A stretch of DNA of 49,121 bases from a bacterium. Lineage in GTDB: Bacteria; JAGOBX01. Where the stretch lies: the NCBI GenBank assembly GCA_029551925.1, contig JAKPEO010000010.1:1-49121 (forward strand), given 5' to 3'. A program made the translations under genes and the position numbers. Each line of letters starts with the position of its first letter. Positions within the stretch are counted from its first letter, which is position 1. The notes beneath the pieces are model-generated. The model worked only from the letters and a program-made list of their open reading frames with translations, did no database searches and was not told the DNA's origin. This document shows positions 13,451-15,796 of the stretch, piece after piece.

Positions 13451-13651
13451 TTATGCTTCCAAACATTTATCAGTCATCGGCGCTTCTAATTTAGCGTCAG
13501 CGCAATCAGACATATTATAAGTATTAATTGTGCCTTCTGATACATTCGACCCGTGAGGATATACCCCTGAATCATCTGGAATATTATCTTTTGTTAAATC
13601 CGCAATAGTTAAATATTTTTTTAGTTCATATTTTTTATATTGTTTTTTCAT
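13451..13651 (-). CDS. Candidate RiPP precursor peptide with lasso-like leader
   Basis: A 66-residue peptide that starts inside the last codons of the radical SAM gene (17-base overlap), with a GAGAGG ribosome site 6 bases upstream. The first 21 residues look like a leader. Tyr5, Leu10 and Thr20 fall at the spacing of the lasso-leader pattern YxxPxLxxxGxxxxxTx, and IADLTK echoes lasso leaders, although the usual Pro and Gly are Tyr8 and Leu14. In lasso systems cleavage follows the residue after that Thr, which would leave a core of about 45 residues starting DNIPDDSGVYPHG. That core contains Cys50, Cys63, Tyr31 and Tyr45. It lacks a Gly/Ala/Ser/Cys first residue with Asp/Glu at 7-9, so a lasso ring is unlikely. 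The modification is unknown. Confidence 0.65.
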   Translation of the reverse strand: MKKQYKKYELKKYLTIADLTKDNIPDDSGVYPHGSNVSEGTINTYNMSDCADAKLEAPMTDKCLEA

Positions 13652-14687
13652 TTAATACCTCTCTACTTATTTTTGCTATATTGCATCTTACACTCGGCGC
13701 GCGATAAATATCTTGATAATACGCATAACTTACGCCAATACAGCGATATTTACAATATGTGAAAATATCGCAATCTCTGCATTCGTTAATATCTTTATTT
13801 TTTAAATTTCGTATTTCATTTAATTTTTTATTATTATACCATATATTTTCAAATTTGTCATTAAAAATATTTCCCACTTTCATTCGCCAAGCGATACACG
13901 GATACACATCGCCATTATAACCAATTGCTAATTTATTTTTGCCTGCTACGCATACATAACTTTCTAAAAATTTTTCTTTGTCAGTATATTCAGATTTTAA
14001 TGCTAATTTTTTTTTATATTTATCGCGCAAAATAATGTTTATTTCCTTTAATTCTTTTTCGGTTAAGGCATATTTTAAATTATCTGTATCGCCGTCTTCT
14101 CGCGGCATCAGAGTAAATTCGCTAACTTGTAAATAGCCGTTATTATCGGAAAATTGCATTATATTTTCCCATTCGCAATAATTTTGTTTTATTATTGCGG
14201 TCTTTAAAATAAATTTGATATTATATTCTTTAAGTTTTTTTATTAAAATCATTAAATTTTCAAAACTTCCGCACCGCCGCGTGATTGAATTATGAATATT
14301 TGCAGATACTCCATAAAAACTCAAATGCACGCTTTTCAAAAATCCAGAGTTTGCAAATTTATTTATCAGTTTGTCATCTATAAAATAACCATTTGTTAAT
14401 ATGGTATATTGAAATTTTAATTTTATAGTATAATCTAATATGTCTTCAAATTGCGGATGCATTAGCGGTTCGCCGCCAGTATACGCGATTTTCAAGCAGC
14501 CCATATTTTTTAATTTTTCTAATATTTCAAATGTTTTGTCTTTTGGCAGATATTGTCTCGGCTCTCTTTTTATATAACAATGAATGCAATCGAAATTACA
14601 AGCATTTGTTAATTCTATTACCGCGCTCATCGGCGCTAATCTACTCGAATATTTTTTTGCGAGCGTAAGCAAATCAATATTATTCAT
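13635..14687 (-). CDS. Radical SAM/SPASM peptide-modifying enzyme
   Basis: A 350-residue radical SAM protein of the PqqE/sactisynthase type. The SAM-binding cluster motif is CNFDCIHC (Cys30, Cys34, Cys37), followed by YTGGEPLMHP. The C-terminal SPASM domain has seven cysteines at 246, 264, 303, 306, 312, 316 and 335 (including GYNGDVYPC and ECRDCDIFTYCKYRC), enough for two auxiliary iron-sulfur clusters. Such enzymes cross-link or epimerise side chains in ribosomal peptides. The immediate neighbours, a PqqD-like protein, a B2-like peptidase and a short peptide, make peptide modification the likely role. The gene begins 7 bases after the peptidase stop. The chemistry cannot be told from sequence. 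Confidence 0.88.
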   Translation of the reverse strand: MNNIDLLTLAKKYSSRLAPMSAVIELTNACNFDCIHCYIKREPRQYLPKDKTFEILEKLKNMGCLKIAYTGGEPLMHPQFEDILDYTIKLKFQYTILTNGYFIDDKLINKFANSGFLKSVHLSFYGVSANIHNSITRRCGSFENLMILIKKLKEYNIKFILKTAIIKQNYCEWENIMQFSDNNGYLQVSEFTLMPREDGDTDNLKYALTEKELKEINIILRDKYKKKLALKSEYTDKEKFLESYVCVAGKNKLAIGYNGDVYPCIAWRMKVGNIFNDKFENIWYNNKKLNEIRNLKNKDINECRDCDIFTYCKYRCIGVSYAYYQDIYRAPSVRCNIAKISREVLNEKTI

Positions 14688-14693
14688 AATTTT

Positions 14694-15113
14694 TTAAAAT
14701 TTCAAAACCTCAATATACTCATTTTTTTCTGGTGATTTTAGCAGTTCGTCAAATAAAATCTTTCCTTGATATTCTATCCAAGAATGCCCTGATAATGTCC
14801 CATTTTTTTTTGTTATGCCAATATTCAAATTAAAGTTATTATCAATATAACTATTTAGATAATAATATAAAAGCATTGTCTTTGTCAAACAATTGTTTTT
14901 ATCTAATATTTTTACAACTTTATTTATCCAATAATAAAACCAATGCGCGGTGATATTATATTTTTTAAGACTATTTAATTTATTAGTATTTGGCATCATA
15001 ATTTTTGGAAGTTTATCAAATTTTATATTTTTTTTGATTAGTTTTATTTTTAGCGCGCGGATTATTATTGAACTGACAATTACTATTTTAATTAATTTCA
15101 ATAAGATTTTCAC
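14694..15113 (-). CDS. Lasso-B2-like (Transglut_core3) leader peptidase
   Basis: A 139-residue protein of the transglutaminase-like cysteine protease family known as B2 in lasso-peptide pathways, where it removes the leader peptide. The expected triad is visible: Cys75 in NNCLTKTMLLYYYL, His110 in LSGHSWIEYQGK and Asp122 in LFDELL. The first 25 residues are hydrophobic and basic, possibly a membrane contact, and length is typical. It overlaps the PqqD-like gene by 26 bases, which mirrors the B1-B2 arrangement of lasso operons. The usual partner, an asparagine-synthetase-like cyclase, is missing and a radical SAM enzyme takes its place. Confidence 0.8.
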   Translation of the reverse strand: MKILLKLIKIVIVSSIIIRALKIKLIKKNIKFDKLPKIMMPNTNKLNSLKKYNITAHWFYYWINKVVKILDKNNCLTKTMLLYYYLNSYIDNNFNLNIGITKKNGTLSGHSWIEYQGKILFDELLKSPEKNEYIEVLKF

Positions 15114-15354
15114 TTTTTAATTCGTTTAATAATTCATTTATATCATTTATCGCCGCATCTTTTGAAATTTCATAATTAGCGATTAAAAATTCAACAATTT
15201 CTTGAAATTCGCAGGTTTTTCGCTCGTTGATAAATTTTAATATTTCTATTCCGCTATTAGTGATACCATAATAGCAACTGTTATCGGCATTTAGAATAAT
15301 TAATTCATCATCTAATTGCCTAATTACTAAATTTTCGTTTATCTTTATAATCAT
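15088..15354 (-). CDS. PqqD-like RiPP recognition element (B1-type)
   Basis: An 88-residue PqqD-family protein. It has the compact winged-helix pattern: an N-terminal strand (LVIRQLDDELIILNADNSCYYGI), then GIEILKFI and a helical C-terminus ending LLNELKSENLIEI. In the family this domain binds the leader of the precursor peptide and presents it to the modifying enzyme or the leader peptidase. It is first in the operon, and no good ribosome site precedes its ATG. The start lies only 30 bases beyond a strong terminator, which suggests read-through or a weak promoter that I cannot see. Confidence 0.8.
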   Translation of the reverse strand: MIIKINENLVIRQLDDELIILNADNSCYYGITNSGIEILKFINERKTCEFQEIVEFLIANYEISKDAAINDINELLNELKSENLIEIN

Positions 15355-15383: not shown

Positions 15384-15414
15384 AAGCCGATTATAAAAAA
15401 ATTATAATCGGCTT
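15384..15414 (-). terminator. Rho-independent terminator upstream of the RiPP operon
   Basis: A perfect 13-base-pair stem (AAGCCGATTATAA, 15384-15396; complement 15402-15414) closes a five-base loop. Read on the minus strand it is followed by a run of seven T. It would end the transcript coming from the tRNA-His/DUF2934 genes, just before the PqqD-like gene. Confidence 0.88.
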
Positions 15415-15472: not shown

Positions 15473-15796
15473 CTACTTCTTGCTTTTTGTTGATTTTACT
15501 GCTTTGGGCTCGCTTTTGGACGATTCTTTCTTTGGAGTAGCTTTTACTACCGTTTTTTTTTCAACAGAAACCGCTGATTCTTCTTTAACAGCTTTTGATG
15601 CTGTTTTTTTAGATTCTTCTTTTTTGCCTTTGGCTTCTGCTTGCTGTTTTTTTGCTTGCGCTTCTAATTCTTGTTTTATTTCGCGTTCTGCGCGATACCA
15701 GTCTTCAATATGATAACCGTGCACTCCGCCGCGTTCTAAAAAATAATAATAAGCGCGTTCAGCAATCATTTTTTCTACATCATTACCACCATTCAT
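15473..15796 (-). CDS. DUF2934-like small protein with lysine/alanine-rich tail
   Basis: A 107-residue protein. The first 45 residues (MIAERAYYYFLERGGVHGYHIEDWYRAEREI) match the DUF2934 pattern, a short domain of unknown function found in many bacteria. The rest is a low-complexity basic tail rich in Lys, Ala, Ser and Glu, ending KSTKSKK, that could bind nucleic acid or be flexible. Expression should be strong, because a near-perfect AAGGAGGTGA ribosome site precedes the ATG. It lies 32 bases after tRNA-His and is followed by the terminator at 15384-15414. Confidence 0.8.
   Translation of the reverse strand: MNGGNDVEKMIAERAYYYFLERGGVHGYHIEDWYRAEREIKQELEAQAKKQQAEAKGKKEESKKTASKAVKEESAVSVEKKTVVKATPKKESSKSEPKAVKSTKSKK

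Follow-up and report, generated by a model that had tools for sequence, protein, structure and literature searches.

A putative radical SAM RiPP operon with lasso-type leader processing

In split-B lasso peptide pathways, such as those of paeninodin, fusilassin and BsfA, the precursor leader is handled by a PqqD-type RRE (B1) and a PF13471-type peptidase (B2), in company with an Asn synthetase-like cyclase. Lasso leaders carry YxxPxL at positions -17 to -12 and a Thr at -2 (PMC10368454), and the leader is brought to B2 by B1 (PMC10368454; available text of PMC13381572). Sactipeptides and ranthipeptides (SkfB, CteB, PapB; StsB/StsC) have Cys-containing cores and RRE-guided radical SAM (rSAM) maturases with seven SPASM cysteines, and the available text of PMC12710340 groups the sactipeptide RRE StsC with the lasso RREs. 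According to the available text of a 2026 paper (PMC13381572), the linear polyphosphorylated peptides (LPP) are a non-lasso RiPP family with a discrete lasso-like RRE, a [Y/W]xxP leader and a different peptidase; that text nowhere uses the word 'radical'. The RRE-Finder study (PMC7470986) counts about 300 discrete lasso-model RREs that co-occur with an rSAM and puts them down to false-positive calls by the lasso model; its available text gives them neither a B2 partner nor a precursor family or a class. Further, a PqqD-like protein accompanies a SPASM rSAM in the SynChlorMet and GeoRSP cassettes (NCBIfam TIGR04248-04251, TIGR04302-04303).

The operon described here lies in a window of 49,121 nucleotides (the whole stretch of DNA that was analysed; contig JAKPEO010000010.1 of assembly GCA_029551925.1) and, judged from its sequence, is called a putative radical SAM RiPP operon with lasso-type leader processing. 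With the split-B lasso systems it shares the PqqD-type RRE and the PF13471-type peptidase; of the YxxPxL...T(-2) register the window leader keeps Tyr, Leu and Thr, with Tyr in place of Pro; clusters related to it contain, like lasso clusters, HPr-kinase-like and nucleotidyltransferase genes (PMC8498205). Unlike the lasso systems, it has a SPASM rSAM instead of the Asn synthetase-like cyclase, a branch in the B2 tree parts its B2 from the cyclase-linked ones, and its predicted core does not start with Gly. The seven-Cys SPASM maturase, the Cys-containing core and the guidance by an RRE recall the sactipeptides and ranthipeptides, but the operon carries a lasso-type B2 leader peptidase, matches no named maturase over its cut-off, and would form a bond whose type is a prediction. 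It resembles LPP clusters in its discrete lasso-like RRE and leader, whereas LPP uses a kinase and a signal-peptidase-I (SpI)-like leader peptidase; neither an SpI-like peptidase nor an HPrK-type kinase was found in the operon itself or in those of its immediate neighbours that were tested. The RRE-Finder cases share its lasso-type RRE beside an rSAM, and matches from the operon to the SynChlorMet and GeoRSP models are far under the equivalog cut-offs.

A preliminary description had reported four overlapping or abutting minus-strand genes, and all four were confirmed, overlapping or nearly abutting, so that the PqqD-B2-rSAM-peptide operon is a real observation. The first gene encodes a PqqD-family, B1-like RRE predicted to bind the leader (15088..15354, 88 aa), and is overlapped by 26 nt by the gene for a B2-like transglutaminase-fold cysteine peptidase (14694..15113, 139 aa). 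The predicted peptide-modifying SPASM rSAM enzyme follows (13635..14687, 350 aa), and the last 17 nt of its gene overlap the precursor peptide gene (13451..13651, 66 aa). The operon contains no transporter gene. Its likely upstream boundary is a terminator-like hairpin on the same strand (15384..15414; 13 pairs and a T run), which is weak evidence taken alone because two such sites were found against 1.7 expected in shuffles. Behind this hairpin, directly upstream of the operon, a gene at 15473-15796 encodes a DUF2934 protein whose long tail is rich in Lys, Glu, Ala and Ser.

The PqqD protein matches PF05402 over the cut-off (E 2.6e-11, 44.1 bits), and its top NCBIfam match is lasso_PqqD_Bac, under that model's cut-off. 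The B2 protein matches PF13471 (2.5e-5) at 24.6 bits, slightly under the 26-bit cut-off, and NF033537 lasso_biosyn_B2 (3.6e-6) at 27.4 bits, under the 33-bit cut-off. In the genome as a whole, PqqD and B2 are matched once each, by these two genes. For the B2, a Cys75/His110/Asp122 triad had been proposed; Cys75 and His110 are indeed invariant in 18 aligned B2s, but at the position of Asp122 many of them, rather than all, have Asp or Glu. Neither sequence nor fold comparison gave a strong link to a solved structure: no sequence match to a solved B2 homologue was found, and the structure model (pLDDT 87.5) matched cysteine peptidases and transglutaminase-like enzymes weakly, with Z scores of 5.3 or less.

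The rSAM matches PF04055 (6.6e-26) and the SPASM domain PF13186 (1.7e-13), and both of its expected cysteine sets were located in the sequence, namely the cluster motif C30-x3-C34-x2-C37 and seven SPASM cysteines (C246, 264, 303, 306, 312, 316 and 335). No named rSAM family was matched over its NCBIfam cut-off, the maturase models SkfB, AlbA and StsB reaching 86 of 300, 74 of 850 and 77 of 625 bits, respectively. PQQ biosynthesis was considered and rejected, the PqqE equivalog model scoring 79.6 of 381 bits. The solved structures nearest to the AlphaFold model (pLDDT 88) are CteB (Z 27.9), anSME (26.1), SuiB (25.4), ChlB (24.7) and SkfB (24.5). CteB, anSME, SuiB and SkfB are peptide or protein modifiers, and a peptide is therefore the likely substrate of the modelled enzyme. 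CteB forms thioethers and SuiB is a carbon-carbon cross-linking enzyme, and the modelled fold would fit either chemistry, with no distinction between them from the structural neighbours. In a scan of contigs from named organisms the relatives of the rSAM were distant, the best being an Endomicrobia MAG (L024, 6837-9595) with PqqD, rSAM and peptide but no B2 alongside. In this locus and in L125, L149, L151 and L145, a related rSAM, mostly with PqqD and an HPrK-like gene, is accompanied by a small gene of the Peptidase_S24/S26 or archaeal signal-peptidase-I-like type, which takes the place of B2. Since this gene is similar to that of LppS, the peptidase of LPP, rSAM RiPPs may exchange one type of leader peptidase, B2 or SpI, for the other.

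The 66-aa open reading frame is very probably a true gene, going by its codon usage, ribosome-binding site and shared motifs. A Shine-Dalgarno-like AGAGAGG (13658..13664, minus strand) stands 6 nt 5' of its ATG, and its codon score is 0.30 per codon against a maximum of 0.031 among 19 spurious ORFs. The peptide reads Y5-K-K-Y8-E-L10 ... T20-K21, so that with cleavage after Lys21 the residues Tyr(-17), Leu(-12) and Thr(-2) fall into the lasso register, with Tyr in place of the usual Pro(-14). The leader segment YKKYELKKYLTIADLT (residues 5-20; 13592..13639, minus strand) was scored with a matrix built from 20 other precursors, the window precursor being left out, and came top of 23,218 16-mers in the ORFs of the window (13.4 bits, next 8.4). 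This score was reached by 10 of 20,000 peptide shuffles and by 2 of 2 million random 16-mers. It is far under the 28-46 bits of the training leaders, values that are optimistic because those leaders built the matrix. The predicted core DNIPDDSGVYPHGSNVSEGTINTYNMSDCADAKLEAPMTDKCLEA (residues 22-66; 13454..13588, minus strand), placed by the leader register, contains Cys50 and Cys63.

The same arrangement recurs in other bacteria. A profile search with the rSAM gave as closest match a set in family f107 (G107, G243 and G370), in which PqqD, B2, rSAM and a 51-aa precursor have the same order as in the window and an HPr-kinase-like gene comes next; the G370 and window rSAMs match at 2.7e-54. The four-gene set was found in six of the seven genomes of f107's phylum, which is not that of the window, and these belong to two families (f107 and f269). 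Where contigs are long enough, the set is flanked on one side by ABC/BMP transport genes, those for an ABC ATPase and a BMP-type lipoprotein standing just upstream, and on the other by the gene of a large membrane protein, of the Wzy_C/TPR type in the two cases tested. All f107/f269 precursors are 51 aa long and read K/R-Y-x-K-P-[VI]-L-x-K-Y...T, then ...EGT....[DS]C[TA]L[TG]RC..EP...KG. The window leader is identical to that of G243 at 7/16 residues in an ungapped comparison (about 0.2% of shuffles), and the core motif EGT...(S/A)DC is common to window and f107 precursors; it was matched in 3 of 100,000 shuffles, an optimistic figure because the motif was written after both sequences had been seen. 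Thus, PqqD, B2, rSAM and precursor with a YxxPxL-type leader and no cyclase are found together in the window, whose leader lacks the Pro, and in six f107/f269 genomes.

A second group is formed by the G226 genus, where PqqD-B2-rSAM is present in six genomes and precursors were found in five, with 1-6 per locus; the G418 contig does not extend beyond the rSAM. These precursors combine a near-invariant leader, YxKPxLTKHxPLRDIT, with short, hypervariable, Cys-free cores. Recurrence of PqqD-B2-rSAM sets with related precursors and no cyclase, which the preliminary description had proposed as a check of its idea, was therefore seen in both f107/f269 and the G226 genus. The peptide is also conserved along with the enzymes, closely related precursors being present in the six genomes of the other phylum. 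In the complete genome of G409, the seventh of the G226 genus, PqqD, B2, precursor and kinase are present, with no such rSAM gene between B2 and precursor. The phylum of the window was represented by one further genome, G001, which has PqqD-B2 and no detectable ortholog of the window rSAM. Since G001 and G409 are without the rSAM, the two modules can come apart. In a sister family from the phylum of G226 (G434, G438 and G430), PqqD-B2 occurs with a cyclase, and G434 has a lasso-like precursor.

More B2-rSAM loci were found in G069, G188, G043, G320, G349, G191, G186, G318 and G041, with a [YF]xxPxL-type peptide between or beside the enzymes in G349 and G191. In G210, B2 and rSAM are on separate contigs, and the G069/G210 cores contain CxNPDxC. 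Several neighbouring arrangements were also observed. PqqD-B2 in G001 (L020, G001:C386, 2312-5771) immediately follows a xanthine/aldehyde-oxidase-like gene of 927 aa, and neither an rSAM nor a precursor is adjacent to the pair. A second peptide, whose leader reads Y[QH]RPxLRRxGWLRDVTA, stands before a Mur-ligase-like gene beside PqqD-B2-rSAM in L064 (5146-6723) and L102 (8517-10063), and L102 (G410) has an rSAM fragment in addition to a full copy. In L076 (9461-11099) and L103 (167-2673), PqqD-rSAM-precursor is followed by a PRMT-like methyltransferase gene, the conserved core reads EYQ.A.G..NS..C.NPD.C, and the B2 and HPrK-like genes are convergent or on another contig.

The partners of B2 were surveyed with PF13471 alone in 386 diverse genomes, followed by reading of the neighbourhoods. 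Within about 5 kb, the 41 B2 loci, window included, had an Asn synthetase-like gene in 13 cases, an rSAM in 12, both in 1 and neither in 15. Many genomes also contain proteins of ~450-700 aa that match about 50 profile positions (about 50-97) and are not discrete B2s. A further search around G188 yielded mostly genomes that were already in the survey and is no independent test of this partner rule. In a tree of 39 B2s (147 columns, the long-branch cyclase-linked rows G077, G151 and G180 left out), 19 rSAM-linked B2s lie on one side of a branch and 11 cyclase-linked ones on the other, with support of 97/91, and no shuffle of the labels was as clustered. It should be noted that G409 was labelled by its relatives though it lacks the rSAM, that the rSAM of G210 is on another contig, and that the f107/f269 B2s entered via their rSAM neighbours, most others having come from the PF13471 search alone. 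The window B2 is sister to that of G001 and near those of f107, and seven B2s with neither partner are also on the rSAM side. An earlier quick tree had no cyclase-linked row inside a 96% branch holding the rSAM-linked rows other than G186, whose sequence was mistranslated in that tree. As the rSAM-linked B2s have their own side of the tree, they look like an old parallel lineage rather than the outcome of recent cyclase loss.

Based on these observations, the operon is probably a RiPP pathway in which a lasso-type leader system works with an rSAM maturase in the place of the lasso cyclase. The sequence itself supports the four genes with their catalytic residues, the leader register, the recurrence in other genomes, the lack of a cyclase nearby and a B2 lineage apart; the order of steps, the cleavage site and the bond type are what we infer. 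The PqqD-like RRE would bind the leader (Tyr5-Thr20) of the 66-aa precursor, and the SPASM rSAM would modify the core, the simplest product being a thioether from Cys50 and/or Cys63 to another residue, although a Cys thioether is a guess. B1 would then present the leader to B2, which would cut after Lys21 and release a core of ~45 residues.

Compatible with this explanation is the proposal that the product is a sactipeptide or ranthipeptide, with Cys-to-carbon thioethers, that has borrowed a lasso-type RRE and peptidase, to which slightly less than even weight is given. The two Cys of the window core, CTLTRC/CALGRC in f107/f269 and CxNPDxC in G069/G210 favour thioethers in these cores, and the seven SPASM cysteines, the CteB fold as closest solved structure, with SkfB near too, and a sactipeptide with the discrete lasso-like RRE StsC (available text of PMC12710340) point the same way. 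However, the NCBIfam thioether maturase models match far under their cut-offs, the carbon-carbon cross-linking SuiB is structurally almost as close, and related clusters have Cys-free cores; those of the G226 genus would need another reaction. Since the sampled cores include both kinds, with and without Cys, more than one chemistry is likely.

Rather less likely is a product that serves as a cofactor-like or signalling peptide and is not exported as a bioactive one. The f107/f269 core is strongly conserved across five genera of one phylum, with a fixed precursor length of 51 aa, which suggests a conserved cellular role there, and the window operon is without a transporter gene. However, transport genes, the ABC ATPase and the BMP-type lipoprotein gene, stand just upstream in f107/f269, and the hypervariable cores of the G226 genus would be a pattern as in secreted antagonistic peptides.

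That the operon makes a lasso peptide, with a cyclase encoded elsewhere in the genome and the rSAM as an extra tailoring enzyme, is highly improbable. PqqD and B2 form the classical lasso pair, the leader fits, and the genome has eight PF00733 matches, but MCGI opens each of the five whose start is readable. Such a start provides the catalytic Cys2 of true glutamine-dependent asparagine synthetases, and the lasso cyclases used for comparison have neither MCGI nor Cys2, so the five are AsnB-like and a lasso cyclase elsewhere was judged unlikely. The other matches are a fragment at a contig end (L014) without its N-terminus and two that are short and weak; because of these, and of an assembly that is 86% complete, the absence of a cyclase is well supported rather than absolute. 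No lasso cyclase was found within several kb of the operon, either in the window or in relatives with this gene order, where one co-occurring beside the operon was also looked for; further, the inferred core starts with Asp, not Gly, and the B2 is on the rSAM side of the tree. Of the earlier statement that the cyclase has been replaced by an rSAM, the lack of a nearby cyclase holds, but 'replaced' may be the wrong direction for B2s that have their own side of the tree. Last, a chance neighbourhood of an orphan PqqD-B2 pair, an unrelated rSAM and a spurious short ORF is the least credible reading, for although PqqD-B2 pairs without rSAM exist (G001, G409), it is at odds with the overlapping same-orientation genes, the coding statistics and the leader match, and is largely refuted by relatives with the exact order in a distant phylum.

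The RiPP pathway with lasso-type leader processing and an rSAM maturase thus remains the preferred reading, and the preliminary interpretation of a lasso B1/B2 and rSAM peptide operon is supported as a whole: a cyclase beside the operon in relatives, and enzymes conserved with an unconserved peptide, were both looked for and neither was encountered. The combination of B1, B2 and rSAM was not found described in the available text of the open-access literature, subscription journals being outside the search, and the suggestion that the class may be undescribed holds against that literature. Given its recurrence in distant bacteria, the set seems to be a distinct type of peptide pathway, and one that apparently has not been described. 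More tentatively, the rSAM-linked B2s could be an old lineage that serves a widespread, unrecognised RiPP class. Such a class would join a lasso toolkit (leader, RRE and B2, with a kinase and a nucleotidyltransferase in relatives) to diverse rSAMs, some of which would modify Cys-free cores through as yet unseen reactions, and its product in some phyla might be a conserved cellular factor instead of an antibiotic.

These findings suggest that a 'lasso B2' alone does not mean a lasso peptide. In this sample, B2 loci with an rSAM neighbour are nearly as many as those with a cyclase neighbour and are separate on the tree, so surveys that rely on B1/B2 would overcount lasso peptides and miss this class. 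A B2 of the rSAM side beside a SPASM rSAM and a YxxPxL peptide offers a simple marker for members. Collectively, the precursor families, with conserved or hypervariable cores, provide test material for new radical chemistry, and the leader, RRE and peptidase appear combinable with a different core-modifying enzyme.
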